A stretch of DNA of 64,000 nucleotides from Aliivibrio sifiae. GTDB lineage: Bacteria; Pseudomonadota; Gammaproteobacteria; Enterobacterales; Vibrionaceae. Of the stretch, positions 52,609-60,166 are shown in pieces. How positions within the stretch are numbered: the first letter of the stretch is position 1; every line of letters starts with the position of its first letter. The stretch is from positions 1,392,781-1,456,780 of the forward strand of contig NZ_MSCP01000001.1 of NCBI RefSeq assembly GCF_002954715.1, written 5' to 3'. Below the pieces are notes generated by a model, which did not search any database, was not told the DNA's origin, and saw only the letters and a program-made list of their open reading frames with translations. The translations under genes were made by a program, and so were the position numbers.

Positions 52609-55365
52609 ATGAAAATACTCATTACCGGATTAACGATCTTTATTGCAATCCCTACGCTTGCCTATGCCGCACCATTGGTAACGCCAAATGAAGCGGGTGT
52701 GGCACAAGATCAAGATTACTACACTCAAGATGTACGTAATACTCGCCTTATTTTCACCGAAGAAAACAAACAACACGCAGAGCATGCTGCGAGTGTTGAA
52801 AGCATATTGCAGCCAGCTTACGAGGATACTTTTGGCTATCAAATGGATGACCGTTTAAATGTCGGTTTGATGTCTTCTTATAACCAAATAGCTAATGGAT
52901 TCTCTAGTCAATATCCACTCAATCGACAAATCAACTATATGGGTGGCGCACAACTCCCTGACTATTTTTCATCAAGCTCTTGGCTCGACACCTTATTGTT
53001 TCATGAAACCGCCCATGATTATCAAATGAACGCCAAAGACAATGTCGTCTCTAAGTCGATGTTTGCAGTTCTTCACAATGGTTCTATTGGACCTATTGGT
53101 CTTATTCCTGCTGTATTACCCAATTCAACCTCTTCAAGCTTTATGCTTGAGGGGAACGCAGTTTTAAATGAATCTTGGCATGGCCAAGGTGGCCGACTTT
53201 ATAGTGGTCGATACCGGGCAATGACGCATGTCCACGCTAAAGCGGGTAACTTATCGCGAGAGCGCCTTTATAACGACACGCTTTTCTTCCCGTATGGAGA
53301 AAGTGCTTATGTGTTTGGCTCTCAATACCAATATTATTTAGCAGAAACTTACGGCCTAGATGTCACTAATAAGTATTTTAAAAATCGCTCTCAACATTGG
53401 TTATGGCCTTTCCAAGTCAACAGACCAATGAAAAAAACAGTTGGAGAAGATTTTGACTCTACTTTTGCCGCATGGGTTAAAAAAGAAACCCAAGAGGCAA
53501 AAGAGATGCAATTGGCGCAAGGGAAAATCGTTGCGCGTTCTAAATACTATGGTGAACTCAACACCCAACAAGGGAACATTCTTTTCTTAACCAACCCTAC
53601 CGCTGTTCGTGCGCCAACGCTTGTTCATTATGATTTAACCAATAATGAAGTAATAAAAGAAAGCAGCAGCCTAGATATGGGGAAAGTCTATTACAACCAA
53701 GATAAATACTATACGGTTTCAGGGCGTCGCACTTCGGTTTGGCGTACCACTCAAGGTCTATTTAATAACGATGCTCAAATTAAAGAAGGCAGTGAAGGCC
53801 GAGTTCATCAAGGCTATATGAGCGATGGAAAAGACGTGTATTTCAAAACCACGGAGTCTTTTGTTCAACCTCAACTCTATGTTGGCGACCAGTTTTACAG
53901 CGCAGTTAACTCATCGGTCTTAGTTAAAAATGACAACCTCTATTATTTTGTCCAAAAAGGCAATGACCGAACTTTATACCGCAATAAAGAAGCAATCTTA
54001 ACCCTACCCGCTTTCTATACCATCGTTAAAGATGTGGATAGCTCAGGCAGAGTTTACTTTATCGCAAACACTGAAACAGGTAGCTCTCTTTATCGAACTA
54101 AAGATGGCAAAGTTGAGCGCGTTCTTAATGCAGACAATGTCATTGATGCTCGATTAGTTAATGATGACAAGGTACTAGCAACCGCAATCTCTGCAGATGA
54201 TTACTATTATGTTGTCGAAGATATGGAGATAACTGCAGAAGCGCCTTATCAAGTTAAACTCTTTTGGGATGACAAAGACGGTCTAGCTGATCAGCAGCAA
54301 CAAAAATTAGCGAACCTTGAAGACAAACCACTCAACACTGATACGTCTTATGGGCTGTTCAATAATATTCACTACAGTCGAGGCGCATTAACGGTTGGAG
54401 CCGCATCAGAGAAAGACGATAACGGAGAAGATAAACAAAAACTACGTTATAACGCGACGTTTGAATTTACTGATCCATTACAACGCAGTACTTATAGCCT
54501 TTGGGCAATGAATGACGATGAATACAGTGATTTAATTGGTGCTGGTTTTAGCAATAATCAATTTTTCATTATGGGCGGAGTTCGTGCTTATTATGTATTA
54601 AATGACAATTACTCTGATACTAATATCCAAAAAGATCAAACTCGCAATAGCGGTGTTGCTGCTCAATTACGACTGCCTTTCCTACAAACTGGATTTTGGA
54701 ATGCAGAGATCTCAAGCAATTTCTATCAAGATTATAAACTGGATGAGCGTGAACCCTTATCAGCGCAGTTAGATATATCTCGTACAGAACACTACGGTAA
54801 TAGCTGGTTATTAAACAAAGAAGCCACGGTTTCACTTTATGGCGTTCAAGATCGACATGACATGATTCACGGTGCATCTTTATCTTTTGGCACTGATTTA
54901 CCTTCAGAGTTTTATATTAATCTATCAGGGAAATATTCAGGCAGTGATACAAACAAAGCTGGGATATATGAGCGTCGAGGTGTCGAGCTAACACAAGGCA
55001 GTGATTTTATAAATAACGACCCTAGTAGCTTTATTATGCCATCACTTAAAGACGATGCCTTTGCTGAAACTGCTAGCTTGGCTGAGTTAAAACTATCAAA
55101 AGTGATTAACCTATCGGCTTATTCTTTCAAAGGGCCAATATCACTGCGTCGTGAGATGATTGAATTTTCATATCGACGCTATGATTTAGGTAATGTAAAT
55201 ACTCTGGGTGATGTCGATATTAACCAAGGCGTTGTTGGACTTCATTTTGATACGTTAATTATGAATGTGTTACCGATTGGATTTTACACGCAATACATTC
55301 ACAATGATGAAAACCCAATCACCGATAAGAACAGCTTCCAAGCTGGATTCTCGGTTCCATTATAA
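52609..55365 (+). CDS. Secreted HExxH metalloprotease-like protein with propeller and outer-membrane barrel (918 aa)
   Basis: A signal peptide covers residues 1-20. Residues about 21-290 contain the zinc motif HETAH (132-136) within SWLDTLLFHETAHDYQ, and EGNAVLNE (181-188) could provide the third ligand, as in gluzincins. Residues about 310-560 consist of short repeated beta units (NLYYFVQKGNDRTLYRN, RVYFIANTETGSSLYRT), suggesting a propeller. From about 590 to the end, alternating strands such as QFFIMGGVRAYYVL and RREMIEFSYRRYDLG look like an outer-membrane barrel, but the last residue is Leu. The whole is unlike any family I can name. It follows the ToxR-like locus on the + strand and may share its regulation. 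Confidence 0.8.
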   Translation: MKILITGLTIFIAIPTLAYAAPLVTPNEAGVAQDQDYYTQDVRNTRLIFTEENKQHAEHAASVESILQPAYEDTFGYQMDDRLNVGLMSSYNQIANGFSSQYPLNRQINYMGGAQLPDYFSSSSWLDTLLFHETAHDYQMNAKDNVVSKSMFAVLHNGSIGPIGLIPAVLPNSTSSSFMLEGNAVLNESWHGQGGRLYSGRYRAMTHVHAKAGNLSRERLYNDTLFFPYGESAYVFGSQYQYYLAETYGLDVTNKYFKNRSQHWLWPFQVNRPMKKTVGEDFDSTFAAWVKKETQEAKEMQLAQGKIVARSKYYGELNTQQGNILFLTNPTAVRAPTLVHYDLTNNEVIKESSSLDMGKVYYNQDKYYTVSGRRTSVWRTTQGLFNNDAQIKEGSEGRVHQGYMSDGKDVYFKTTESFVQPQLYVGDQFYSAVNSSVLVKNDNLYYFVQKGNDRTLYRNKEAILTLPAFYTIVKDVDSSGRVYFIANTETGSSLYRTKDGKVERVLNADNVIDARLVNDDKVLATAISADDYYYVVEDMEITAEAPYQVKLFWDDKDGLADQQQQKLANLEDKPLNTDTSYGLFNNIHYSRGALTVGAASEKDDNGEDKQKLRYNATFEFTDPLQRSTYSLWAMNDDEYSDLIGAGFSNNQFFIMGGVRAYYVLNDNYSDTNIQKDQTRNSGVAAQLRLPFLQTGFWNAEISSNFYQDYKLDEREPLSAQLDISRTEHYGNSWLLNKEATVSLYGVQDRHDMIHGASLSFGTDLPSEFYINLSGKYSGSDTNKAGIYERRGVELTQGSDFINNDPSSFIMPSLKDDAFAETASLAELKLSKVINLSAYSFKGPISLRREMIEFSYRRYDLGNVNTLGDVDINQGVVGLHFDTLIMNVLPIGFYTQYIHNDENPITDKNSFQAGFSVPL

Positions 55366-56225: not shown

Positions 56226-57530
56226 CTACACTTCTGCTGAAGCTTTAACTACTCTTGATTGTCGGTTTAACAGTAAGCTAATAAATACTGCTAGCACAAC
56301 AGGTAAGAACCAACTCGCATGAGCCGAAAATAAAGGAACATAGCGGGTTAATGGTGTTGATAAAGATTCAGACAATAAACCCAAAATATGCAGTGCATCT
56401 AACCCACCAAATACAAAGCTAATCATAACGATACTGACATATGAAGTTGTATTACGTTTAATTGTAGGTAAAAACCATGCAGCCAATACTAAAGCAATCG
56501 CCACTGGGCATAATATAAGTATGGCAGGTAAACTGATGGCTAAAATTTGTTCTAGTCCAAAATTAGCAACAACACCGGTCATCGCAGTAACAATAATCGC
56601 GCTAATAGAAAATGGAATACGGAACGTTTGTTGACTGTATTCTGCGCATGCATTTGTTAACCCTACGGTTGTAGTTAGACATGCCATGATGATGATACCT
56701 GCCAATAAATATTGTCCTAAAGGTCCGAATATCGCAGCAACATAACGCGTTAATAGCTCTCCACCATTAGTTGCGCCTTCAGCAATAGAGGTTGATGTTG
56801 CACCAACATAGGCCATTGCTAAGTAGCACGCAGACATTAGTAGTGCATAAATTAACGTTACTTTAAGCGTGGCTTGAAAAACATCTTCCGCTGACTCACA
56901 GCCTTTATCACGAATGGCTTTAATAATTACCCAACCAAATCCAACAGCCGCAATCGCATCCATAGTCATATAGCCTTGGATCAAACCACTTGTGATGGCT
57001 TTATTCTGATAACTGGCACTCGGATCACCAAGGACACCTAATGGCGTAATAATGGCTGCTAATGCTAACGCCGCAAGCATAAGAACAAGCAATGGTGTCA
57101 TTACCTTTCCGATGTAATCCACAAGTTTACCTCTTTGGAAAGCCAACAATAATGTTGCCCCAACAAAGAGAGCAGAAAAAAGCATTAAGTGATCACCAGT
57201 AAAGAAAGGCTTTATACCCATTTCATAAGCAACTGTTACTGCTCTTGGCATTCCAAACGCAGGACCAATTGCAATAAAAAGCAATACCCAAAAGGTAACC
57301 CCTAGCGGCTTAGGTAAGGCTTGAGTTAACTGACCACTATCATTTAATCGTCCTAAAACAATTAATGTTAATGCTGGAAGCCCAACAGCGGTAACTAAAA
57401 ATCCAAGCATAGCAGGGAAAAATTGAGTTCCCGCTTCAAGACCTAGAAAAGGTGGAAAGATGATATTTCCAGCGCCAAGAAACATGGCGAAAGTCATTAA
57501 ACCGATAGCAAGTAAATTTTGTTTTTTCAA
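56226..57530 (-). CDS. brnQ: Branched-chain amino acid/cation symporter BrnQ
   Basis: The 434-aa LIVCS-family carrier imports Leu, Ile and Val across the inner membrane. The start is TTG, giving MKKQNLLAIGLMTFAMFLGAG, the typical BrnQ N-terminus, with AGAGG about nine bases upstream. GNIIFPPFLGLEAG and the later GYMTMDAIAAVGFGWVII are family motifs; about 12 membrane segments are seen. An Ile/Val/Leu-rich leader peptide and alternative hairpins precede it, so its transcription probably responds to charging of branched-chain tRNAs. Confidence 0.95.
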   Translation of the reverse strand: MKKQNLLAIGLMTFAMFLGAGNIIFPPFLGLEAGTQFFPAMLGFLVTAVGLPALTLIVLGRLNDSGQLTQALPKPLGVTFWVLLFIAIGPAFGMPRAVTVAYEMGIKPFFTGDHLMLFSALFVGATLLLAFQRGKLVDYIGKVMTPLLVLMLAALALAAIITPLGVLGDPSASYQNKAITSGLIQGYMTMDAIAAVGFGWVIIKAIRDKGCESAEDVFQATLKVTLIYALLMSACYLAMAYVGATSTSIAEGATNGGELLTRYVAAIFGPLGQYLLAGIIIMACLTTTVGLTNACAEYSQQTFRIPFSISAIIVTAMTGVVANFGLEQILAISLPAILILCPVAIALVLAAWFLPTIKRNTTSYVSIVMISFVFGGLDALHILGLLSESLSTPLTRYVPLFSAHASWFLPVVLAVFISLLLNRQSRVVKASAEV

Positions 57531-57582
57531 TGTACAAGTCCTCTTTGCTATTGGGCTGTGCCCTAGTAGCTTTTATTGTGGA

Positions 57583-57660
57583 CCGTCAGATTGGCTGAAA
57601 AAATCAAGAAGAAAATAAAGCAGTCTCCCGTCAGCCTGGCTGACGGAAGTGCCGCCAGCC
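57583..57660 (-). promoter_or_regulatory. Transcription attenuator upstream of brnQ
   Basis: On the minus strand, segment A GGCTGGCGG (57660-57652) can pair with B CCGTCAGCC (57646-57638, nine pairs, one G-U, 5-base loop). B can instead pair with C GGCTGACGG (57636-57628). The B:C form extends to a stem from 57652 to 57620 (two-base bulge) and is followed at once by TTTATTTTCTT, a Rho-independent terminator. A:B would block it. Segment A starts at the last base of the leader stop codon, so a ribosome waiting there hides A and favours termination; one stalled at the Ile/Val/Leu codons leaves A free. A fourth related segment lies at 57598-57583. Confidence 0.75.
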
Positions 57661-57770
57661 TAGTTAATAATCACTAGAATGACTGCAATAATAGATGATG
57701 TTACACGCGACACAGCACCGAGCATTATTTTGCACAAAGGAGCAAATTGTAGGGCTGTAGAAGAAAGCAT
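57660..57770 (-). CDS. brnQ leader peptide (36 aa), Ile/Val/Leu-rich
   Basis: An ATG with TAGGA seven bases upstream opens a 36-codon frame whose last ten residues read IIAVILVIIN, eight of them branched-chain. The stop TAG abuts the first attenuator segment. Codon runs of this kind (ATT ATT GCA GTC ATT CTA GTG ATT ATT) are what ilv-type leader peptides use for sensing. The first 15 residues (MLSSTALQFAPLCKI) look random; a second ATG at codon 16 lacks a good ribosome site. The peptide itself probably has no function beyond stalling. Confidence 0.75.
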   Translation of the reverse strand: MLSSTALQFAPLCKIMLGAVSRVTSSIIAVILVIIN

Positions 57771-58099
57771 GAATGTATCCTAGTCGTTTGTCGTGGTAAC
57801 CAAATCAATATATAAGTAATAATTTATAAAGTAAACACTCAATAGTTAAAAATATCACTATTATCATTTTGTTCAGTTTGATTCACTTCAAGTGTTGGAA
57901 AGCTCTATTCTTTCTGCCATCCAATCTAAAAGGCTTTTTACGTCCTCATCAGGCATAGTAAGTAGTGTATCCCTGATTTATATCATTTAAAACTAGCATG
58001 ACATAGGCTCCATTTAAGGAGCCTATATTAGAGCATTAGATTGATAAATATTTTTTATTCATAAAAATATACCCTCCGGTAAACTAATAATTAAAATAA
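57771..58099. other. Gap between brnQ leader and haemolysin gene
   Basis: The brnQ promoter should lie just right of 57770. A 22-codon minus-strand frame (57888-57956, MPDEDVKSLLDWMAERIELS) has protein-like composition but no ribosome site and may be a scrap of a lost gene. A hairpin at 58003-58026 is listed separately. Nothing else is visible. Confidence 0.35.
58003..58026 (-). terminator. Hairpin after the haemolysin gene, probable terminator
   Basis: ATAGGCTCC and GGAGCCTAT form a perfect 9-bp stem with a 6-base loop, about 75 bp after the haemolysin stop. The following minus-strand sequence is not T-rich. Confidence 0.5.
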
Positions 58100-60166
58100 T
58101 TATTGTCGATTAATTCGAATAGACTCAATTGAATCATTAAAATCAGAGGCATAAGAACTGCTAGAGTTTCTAGTATAGAATCCTCCAGTAAAGTTTTTAC
58201 CTTCAAAGAAAATAACTTCCCAACCATCCGGAATCGTGTATGAACTCAATCTATTATTCATATTTTCCAAATCTGAAATACTGTCTTGAATTGATAAACG
58301 ATCACCTGAATAATCTGTATCAGCAAAAATAGTTAATGATTTATTATTCACATTACTCGGTTCAAAAACTGATGTATAAGATGTAATTGTACGAATACCC
58401 TGCTCAGTATTTTCCTCTGTAGACAGACCAATTTTTCCTGTTAATTTATTATGAGAAAGATACTCAGCAGTACCAACATCTCCTTTTACATATACATTCT
58501 GTAATTTATCGCCGTGCCATTCCCAGCGCTGACTCAAATTAAAATTACACGAATTAAGTGTTGTTAAATTTTGACCGTCCAAACATTTTTTCGTATTAAC
58601 AGCACTAGCATAGCGATTATATTGATCATAAATAAATGACTGTGTAACACTATTGCTCGAACAAATGGAAGGTGATAAATTCCCATTTTCATCAGCATTG
58701 ATACATCTACTATTAAATGAAGCAAGTTGTAAATTAACAGGTCGTCCACCAGTAAATACTGGATGATCCCAATCAACAGTAAACGATGCTGGTTTATTTA
58801 TACGACGAAGCGGTGAATCCTCAACTCCATAATATGTCTGATGTGCACCAATTCCATAAAAATAATACCAAGAACGATTATAAATAGGTCTCATGTTTAC
58901 TGATGAGTCAATTGTAAATACTGTAGTGCCAGTTTCATTTGGCGAAGCTTTATAAATGACATCAAACTTAGGAACAAAACTTGCGTAACCAATAGGCTTA
59001 ACTAAACCAAGATCAACAGGATAATCAGTAACCCATACAGGATTCGTCCAAGATGCTAGTAACGATTCTGATGTCGCATATTGCTCTCTATTCCATTTAA
59101 ACGAAACATGATTAGGCGAGTTAGAATTTCGCTCAACTCGGTAATCTGATGTATTGAATGTCAGAGATTTCGTTTGGTTATAACTAGCGTTTGCTTGAAG
59201 GCTACCTTTAGGTCCCTCTGCGCTAACCTCAGCTCCAGCAGAAACTCCAACATTAAACCCTGATGACTCAGTTACACTATAGTTAGCATTAATATTTTCT
59301 CTTGGGAATGTTTTTAGAATTTGTGCTTTCTTATTAGATGCTGAAAAATCAAATAAATAATCTTGAGCAATCGCACTTGCCGACCATTCTATCGCCCATC
59401 CAGAAACAACCTGATAACCAGCATTATTTACTCTTTCCGACAACTGTTCATTTAAATGAATACCAGTACCTGACGTATTATCATCCAAACTAATCCTAAC
59501 AATTTTCGCATCTGGAGTTGCTGCTGCACTTGTGCCAAACTGTAATGAACGTTCTAAAATAACTTGATAAATTAAAGAAATATTACCGTTATTACAGAAT
59601 GTTCGAGAACCACGATCCCAAACTAAAGAATTTGGAAAGCTACATTCAGCATCTGTGATTTGTTTATTCACTTCTAGGTAAAACGATACATGCGGAAGTG
59701 ACCCAGATTTACCAGATTCATTCTCACTCGATGATAAAGCTGCTACTGGAGGATAATATTCATCACTAGAATCTAAAGTAAATAAATTAGCATCATTTTC
59801 ACCATTTAAAGGGGAAAACATCAACTTGCCTTTATGTCGAGTTATAATCAAAAAGTCTTCTTCAAAGCTTAATCCTATATTATTACGCAACAATGATTTC
59901 TTTTTTTCTTTTAATTCTGGGTCAGTAACTCGGCTAAAATCAATCAAGTATTTTTTATTACTTCCTACAATTTCATTATTCATATCAGTATATTTAATAA
60001 CATTGTCAACTGATTCGTTCCAATTCTTCGCATCAATATAAATAACATCTTGATTCTGCAAACGACTAAGCATTGAAACTGCAGCACCATCAGCTACATC
60101 CTCATAGGCAACAGCTCCACCATTAAAACAAAGAGATATCAAACAACAAATAAGACTTTTTTTCAT
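58100..60166 (-). CDS. VCC-type pore-forming haemolysin with C-terminal beta-gamma-crystallin domain
   Basis: The 688-aa toxin has a signal peptide (1-20) and a pro-region-like segment (about 21-155). The leukocidin/aerolysin-type pore domain covers about 160-475, with SVTESSGFNVGVSAGAEVSA as the likely stem region and YFYGIGAHQTYYGV. A ricin-type beta-trefoil lectin domain (about 477-600) follows, ending in NFNLSQRWEW. So far this is the plan of V. cholerae cytolysin. The end differs: residues 610-686 form two Greek-key motifs of a beta-gamma-crystallin (IFADTDYSGDRLSI and FFEGKNFTGGFYTR), each with a calcium-clamp-like sequence (NNRLSS at 637-642; NDSIES at 677-682), where VCC has a beta-prism. 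It is a single gene beside a 1.1-kb AT-rich gap. Confidence 0.9.
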   Translation of the reverse strand: MKKSLICCLISLCFNGGAVAYEDVADGAAVSMLSRLQNQDVIYIDAKNWNESVDNVIKYTDMNNEIVGSNKKYLIDFSRVTDPELKEKKKSLLRNNIGLSFEEDFLIITRHKGKLMFSPLNGENDANLFTLDSSDEYYPPVAALSSSENESGKSGSLPHVSFYLEVNKQITDAECSFPNSLVWDRGSRTFCNNGNISLIYQVILERSLQFGTSAAATPDAKIVRISLDDNTSGTGIHLNEQLSERVNNAGYQVVSGWAIEWSASAIAQDYLFDFSASNKKAQILKTFPRENINANYSVTESSGFNVGVSAGAEVSAEGPKGSLQANASYNQTKSLTFNTSDYRVERNSNSPNHVSFKWNREQYATSESLLASWTNPVWVTDYPVDLGLVKPIGYASFVPKFDVIYKASPNETGTTVFTIDSSVNMRPIYNRSWYYFYGIGAHQTYYGVEDSPLRRINKPASFTVDWDHPVFTGGRPVNLQLASFNSRCINADENGNLSPSICSSNSVTQSFIYDQYNRYASAVNTKKCLDGQNLTTLNSCNFNLSQRWEWHGDKLQNVYVKGDVGTAEYLSHNKLTGKIGLSTEENTEQGIRTITSYTSVFEPSNVNNKSLTIFADTDYSGDRLSIQDSISDLENMNNRLSSYTIPDGWEVIFFEGKNFTGGFYTRNSSSSYASDFNDSIESIRINRQ

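Follow-up and report, generated by a model that had tools for sequence, protein, structure and literature searches.

The leader of brnQ in Aliivibrio sifiae encodes a short peptide ending in a run of branched-chain residues and is followed by segments that can pair in several exclusive ways; these segments are present and conserved, and their helices co-vary. The leader is probably a ribosome-sensing RNA switch whose output, in either direction, is the access of ribosomes to the brnQ initiation site. The direction may be the one given by the folding models, in which stalling turns brnQ off, the reverse of the ilv attenuators. We tentatively propose a switch of reversed polarity, in which a finished leader would lead to an antisequestor (helices B:D3 and C:D5) and turn the importer on and a stall would turn it off, with an Ile-rich and a Val-rich paralogous form among Vibrionaceae and some Moritella, Psychromonas, and Shewanella.

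The window, that is, the whole 64,000-nucleotide (nt) stretch of A. sifiae DNA analyzed here, contains on its minus strand a 36-codon open reading frame (57770-57660) that translates to MLSSTALQFAPLCKIMLGAVSRVTSSIIAVILVIIN, with the C terminus IIAVILVIIN. Its ATG is preceded at 7 nt by AGGA, as read from the sequence, and its stop codon TAG (57662-57660, minus strand) directly adjoins segment A, GGCTGGCGG. The initial annotation had described a 36-codon leader with its own ribosome site and this C terminus ahead of brnQ, which the sequence bears out, and a stop codon abutting A, with A:B and B:C as alternative pairings, which are present in both the sequence and the folds. Absent from that annotation were segment D, which adjoins brnQ upstream and consists of TCAGCC (D5) followed by CTGACGGTCC (D3), and the co-variation of D3 with the brnQ Shine-Dalgarno sequence (SD), both of which point to control of translation initiation. 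The parts of the element are as follows.

57807..57835, minus strand: predicted promoter, TTTACT / TATATT with a 17-nt spacer (consensus scan)
57778..57781, minus strand: leader ribosome site AGGA (sequence; aligned among relatives)
57660..57770, minus strand: leader peptide open reading frame, 36 codons (translation)
57673..57677, minus strand: segment 1, CTAGT, within Leu/Val codons; partner ACTAG at 57664-57660, spanning the stop codon
57652..57660, minus strand: segment A; partner B
57638..57646, minus strand: segment B, CCGTCAGCC; partners A, C, or D3
57625..57636, minus strand: segment C, GGCTGACGG (itself 57636-57628) plus GAG; partners B or D5
57593..57603, minus strand: segment D5, a U run plus CAGCC; partner C (partner-swap test)
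57580..57589, minus strand: segment D3; partners B or the brnQ SD region (partner-swap test)
57547..57570, minus strand: hairpin between D3 and the SD (folding)
57538..57542, minus strand: brnQ SD, AGGAC, complementary to GTCC of D3 (sequence, partner-swap test)
56226..57530, minus strand: brnQ, branched-chain amino acid carrier of the LIVCS family, TTG start (PF05525, E 4.1e-118; TIGR00796, above cut-off)

Together with the U/C-rich bases that precede it, D5 complements C and the purine-rich extension of C, and B:C folds as 11 bp in the window. The T-rich stretch that the initial annotation placed after this stem exists (TTTATTTTCTT, 57619-57609, minus strand) but begins 5 nt (ACTGC) past the extended stem, which had gone unstated. 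Several relatives have different hairpins at the site between D3 and the SD, judging from folds and reading by eye. When the 266-nt region was compared with 200 shuffled versions, 5 of them folded equally well (z = -2.1). The whole window has no Rfam match, and the leader region returned two matches with E values of 3.7 and 4.3, far below the gathering scores. The neighboring gene upstream (58100-60166), on the minus strand like the leader, resembles the Leukocidin/Hemolysin pore-forming family (PF07968, PF12563), and an open reading frame of 918 residues on the plus strand (52609-55365) has a signal-like N terminus by eye and no Pfam match at an E value of 0.001.

Related elements were collected by short motifs, [CA]TAGGCTG[AG]CG for type I, the form in the window, and forms of TCTGTCGTC for type II, so that the motif letters, among them those of the type I stop codon and of part of A, are invariant by construction; the anchor for D is likewise a motif. 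Start codons of brnQ and of the leaders were picked by simple scripted rules, and hybrids matching both motifs were counted as type I. Counting identical elements once, 160 loci yielded 99 elements (58 type I, 41 type II). Conservation of the leader codons and pairings upstream of brnQ, which the initial annotation had proposed as a check, holds among these motif-collected elements.

Of 14 Aliivibrio genomes, 12 have the leader open reading frame and 13 match a covariance model of the type I core (R1); R1 matches 58 of 247 Vibrionaceae genomes, and such recurrence is far beyond chance. Among 295 genomes drawn from the order, 12 match R1, 6 of them in two further families that, from the named loci, look like Moritella and Psychromonas. 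The corresponding type II model (R2) matched 60 of the 247 Vibrionaceae genomes, a count that includes weak cross-matches at type I places, and 6 of the 295. Each of the 73 loci retrieved for the strongest R1 and R2 hits (L088-L160, of which some overlap) shows the motif and, after it, a BrnQ start. Among 72 distinct BrnQ loci from the best 80 of 86 stretches, the motif search found the element at 63 of 63 with at least 51% identity and at 0 of 9 with 40% identity or less. In 11 genomes lacking an R1 match, the single BrnQ of 54% identity has the type II form, and the element occurs at none of 11 BrnQ loci of 42% identity or less. The motif search thus found no element at any of 20 distant paralogue loci, which, beside its presence at the close ones, indicates that the element travels with the gene lineage.

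The type II gene in the same genome (G000:C2:579430-580707) is 55% identical to the window BrnQ, and its homologous leader is Val-rich, ends in LVSVVVVIY/N, and has A, B, C, and D segments of its own; by eye, the third brnQ paralogue (40%) has no such leader. One of the type II loci (L071) comes from Shewanella marina. Types I and II are often in tandem in Photobacterium, about 1.8 kb apart, and further tandem brnQ pairs in this genus (L032 345, L027 4126) carry two type I elements per locus. Three Photobacterium elements (L028 4260-4280, L029 4241-4267, and L041 2347-2373) match both motifs, having a type II-like end rich in Val codons followed by a type I TAG-GCTG core, and are apparently intermediates between the two types.

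Under the start rule used, each of the 99 elements has a leader open reading frame of at least 20 codons, whose translation is predicted. Isoleucine, leucine, and valine make up 73% of the last 11 codons in type I (n = 58; minimum, 64%) versus 21% of the remainder, and 61% (n = 41; minimum, 45%) versus 19% in type II. The N-terminal parts are strongly divergent, Ile and Val interchange, and the runs of close relatives differ by whole codons (ITVIRVIIN versus ITVILVIRVIIN in L025/L124, ILAIIR versus ILAIIIIR in L034/L035), a pattern that suggests sensing of codons and not an arrest peptide of fixed sequence. Most type I leaders finish in similar residues (ILVII[NRHY] or VLVIVI), as might be expected if the nascent peptide itself sensed the free amino acid and stalled the ribosome in abundance, which would make turning brnQ off by a stall ordinary feedback. 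This reading is most improbable, given that the interchange, the N-terminal divergence, and the whole-codon differences are what codon sensing would produce and that the conserved end is also under RNA constraint.

Outside the leader peptide, TTTAC and a TATAT-like -10 region are preserved in seven aligned loci from Aliivibrio, Vibrio, Moritella, Photobacterium, and Psychromonas. Four of the five pairs of the segment 1 helix are standard in 54 to 57 of the 58 type I elements and one is standard in 53, with the 3' letters TAG set by the search motif itself; a possible sixth pair is present in only 26 of the 58.

Co-variation was assessed by a partner-swap test, in which the duplex energy of each segment with its own partner is compared with 5,000 random partner assignments, on representatives of 85% identity clusters (23 type I and 9 type II, 32 in all). 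Because the test ignores shared ancestry and differences between the types contribute much to the combined values, the z scores are upper limits of confidence. The strongest signal was that of D3 with the SD (type I, z = -4.9, with 0 of 5,000 assignments as good; type II, -2.0; all, -7.0), followed within type I by C:D5 (-4.1, 0 of 5,000; type II, -2.0; all, -5.5). Values for B:D3 were -1.2 in type I, -3.1 in type II (21 of 5,000), and -6.7 in all, and those for A:B were 0.3, -1.6, and -4.2. Control pairings of shifted or unrelated segments ranged from -1.5 to 1.7, and A:B and B:D3 within type I are no better than these, so that their support comes from type II and from differences between the forms. 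Extended B:C reached -2.4, -3.6, and -6.6 in type I, type II, and all, and the short B:C helix reached -0.8, -0.7, and -2.5. Of the co-variation among A, B, and C that had been suggested as a check, A:B between types and extended B:C within and across types were therefore recovered, but A:B within type I was not.

Seven strict representatives (four type I, three type II) gave z scores of -3.6 for D3:SD (3 of 5,000), -2.5 for A:B, -2.3 for B:D3, -2.0 for C:D5, and -0.9 for B:C; the four type I representatives alone, too small a sample, gave -1.6 for D3:SD and -1.1 for C:D5. No link between D5 and the SD appeared in the partner-swap test (z = 0.2). Pairing between D5 and the start codon of brnQ, from which the usual direction of control would have followed, was tried and rejected, as true partners bound no better than random ones (type I, -0.15; type II, -0.7; all, -1.1).

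The joint changes are visible in individual lineages. D3 and the SD read GTCC/GGAC in Aliivibrio, ACCTGC/GCAGGT in the P. phosphoreum group, TCCTGC/GCAGGA in P. damselae, and CTGACCT/AGGTTAG for the type II brnQ of P. sanguinicancri. B and D3 change jointly in P. damselae, whose type II gene has GTCGG/CCGAC in place of GTCAG/CTGAC. Within type I, B is nearly frozen, which is to be expected where one segment serves three partners.

The initial annotation read the leader as ilv-like, and its branched-chain codons and the alternative pairings ahead of brnQ, which leader translation should affect, stand; the part that is not supported is B:C as a terminator, for want of a U-tract. Under classical attenuation of the ilv type, B:C would be an intrinsic terminator and A:B the antiterminator, so that starvation would bring read-through. 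The leader codons and the geometry of A, B, and C are consistent with this, a pattern scan lists the window B:C as terminator-like, and in Aliivibrio a T-rich stretch lies a few nucleotides beyond. However, none of the 58 type I and none of the 41 type II elements has at least six T in the 8 nt after the B:C stem; 2 of the 99 have five, and the window has four (ACTGCTTT). The Aliivibrio ilvG attenuator, examined as a control, has seven T after the stem in all 13 measured loci, with 2 of 15 loci departing from the stem pattern. In the same genome, the classical ilvG attenuator (L183, G000:C3:363142-364779) has the leader MTLFAQLNILIINILVVILVTARG and a GC-rich hairpin with seven T directly after it. 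Because the U-tract is missing, an intrinsic terminator is rejected as the general output, and ilv-type attenuation, which also leaves C:D5, B:D3, and D3:SD unexplained, is retained as an unlikely rival.

Termination could instead depend on Rho, with B:C exposing the linker between C and D for Rho loading and A:B allowing C:D5 to hide it. This linker is pyrimidine-rich in most of the elements shown, and part of it lies within D5, the partner of C. It is also short, pairing with the 3' part of C, which is rich in purines, explains at least part of its U/C bias, and the co-variation of the SD is left unaccounted for, all of which makes attenuation by Rho quite improbable.

With translation initiation as the output, the pairings would form a relay of mutually exclusive helices (1:A, A:B, B:C, C:D5, B:D3, and D3:SD). 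D3:SD would mask the brnQ SD and presumably lower translation, and B:D3 with C:D5 would form one long interrupted hairpin that exposes it. Since B takes only one partner at once, the leader ribosome would decide among them; D3 cannot hold B and the SD together, nor B hold A and D3 together, so leader translation should set the exposure of the SD. A ribosome at a stop codon covers about 12 further bases, and a cover of this length hides all of A, while a stall at least three codons earlier leaves A free. A ribosome stalled in the Ile/Val/Leu run, presumably through a shortage of branched-chain aminoacyl-tRNA, would thus allow A:B, return D3 to the SD, and turn brnQ off; one on the stop codon would cover A, let B reach D3, and turn brnQ on.

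In the folding models, covered bases were removed, the remainder was folded at 25°C, and a helix was scored when at least three expected pairs formed. In type I with a stalled ribosome, A:B forms in 55, D3:SD in 57, and B:D3 in 0 of the 58 elements; with A covered, B:D3 forms in 36, B:C in 26, and D3:SD in 36. Stalling raises D3:SD in 49 of 58 and lowers it in 2, and the modeled SD is more open with the ribosome at the stop than with it stalled in 39 and less open in 3. That starvation would turn the gene on, as the ilv-like reading of the initial annotation implies, is not what these type I models give, though it may hold. In type II, stalling gives A:B in 23 and B:D3 in 0 of 41, and B:D3 forms in 13 with A covered; D3:SD hardly shifts (35 stalled versus 33 covered), and the SD shows no clear switch (3 versus 6 of 41). 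With no ribosome at all, type I forms B:D3 in 21 and A:B in 26 of 58, and type II forms B:D3 in 19 of 41, so that in the model the open state needs no leader translation.

The cheapest state from which to open the brnQ ribosome site is that with B:D3, in all 58 type I and all 41 type II elements at 37°C and in 54 of 58 and 39 of 41 at 25°C. These opening costs, together with the exclusion of B:D3 by A:B, indicate an RNA with a single open state and two closed ones, in which A bars the open one. That a stall turns brnQ off follows from this exclusion and holds only if B:C rearranges to B:D3 when A is covered. B:C and B:D3 are nearly equal across type I (mean, -0.7; standard deviation, 3.4 kcal/mol), with 33 of 58 elements within 3 kcal/mol; type II favors B:C by 3.0 kcal/mol on average. 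In the window, B:C is better by 7.1 kcal/mol, the least favorable case among the 58 type I elements, and the equilibrium models of the window show no switch, with an SD accessibility of 0.22 with the ribosome at the stop and 0.23 with it stalled. Because B:C is the first to form during transcription, equilibrium folding may mislead.

An early and lasting B:C is the starting point for the usual direction with the same RNA and the same translational output, which we consider rather unlikely: in sufficiency B:C would persist and D3 mask the SD, and in starvation A:B and C:D5 would open the site somewhat, so that brnQ would rise. Such a response would be physiologically natural for an importer, and opening costs less from the A:B state than from B:C in 31 of the 41 type II elements, which favors this direction over the reverse one, and in the window (5.4 versus 6.2 kcal/mol). 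In type I, however, the two states cost the same on average, A:B being the costlier of the two in 21 of 58 elements and the cheaper in 21 at 37°C (25 and 21 at 25°C). The usual direction also leaves no role for the B:D3 helix, and it runs against the D3:SD pairing predicted in nearly all stalled type I elements.

Under the reversed polarity that we propose, an importer would be shut off in starvation, which is counterintuitive. Promotion of import by plenty would be unusual for scavenging and would fit the use of amino acids as food; Shewanella offers a parallel only, its brnQ being placed, in the pertinent part of PMC3223726, in the TyrR regulon with amino acid degradation operons.

If it operates as proposed, the brnQ switch would carry branched-chain leader sensing beyond biosynthesis to import, and beyond transcription termination to translation initiation; with the direction as modeled, the same sensory idea would be wired in reverse, with plenty promoting uptake. 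The element is compact, it makes definite base-pair predictions, and Photobacterium provides natural Ile-rich and Val-rich versions side by side. Among the titles and abstracts listed, and in the matching text of PMC3223726, PMC2965389, PMC6123439, and PMC1262725, none mentions a leader or attenuator for the brnQ of Vibrionaceae or their relatives; Vitreschak et al. (2004, FEMS Microbiol Lett 234:357), the likeliest source of an earlier prediction, could hold one. What appears to be new is the combination of a branched-chain leader, a helix relay, and an SD output on a transporter gene, its components being known.

That branched-chain leaders attenuate ilv and leu is textbook knowledge, and attenuation at the level of translation is known as well. 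Like the brnQ leader, the E. coli ilvGMEDA, ilvBN, and leuABCD attenuators, as described in the relevant text of PMC6123439, and the ilvG attenuator of the same genome combine a run of branched-chain codons with successive alternative hairpins. Unlike them, the brnQ element controls a transporter, lacks a U-tract after the hairpin, and adds D5 and D3, the latter pairing with the SD of the gene. Translational attenuators include those of the ermC type, the Bacillus subtilis rtpA/AT leader with its Trp codons, and the poly-Cys leaders of mycobacteria, in all of which stalling frees the SD of the next gene. As proposed for brnQ, the position of the ribosome on a leader open reading frame sets the exposure of the next SD; in the brnQ models, by contrast, a stall hides the site through extra helices, and the amino acids and the gene differ. 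The terminator-less leaders of Actinobacteria and the T-boxes that sequester the SD (PMC1262725) resemble the brnQ element as predicted amino acid-linked elements without an obvious terminator, a likeness of type; they belong to another phylum and other genes. The mark of a translational attenuator, an alternative helix on the downstream SD, fits the brnQ element, in which D3:SD co-varies and the control pairings do not; its dependence on the leader is modeled.
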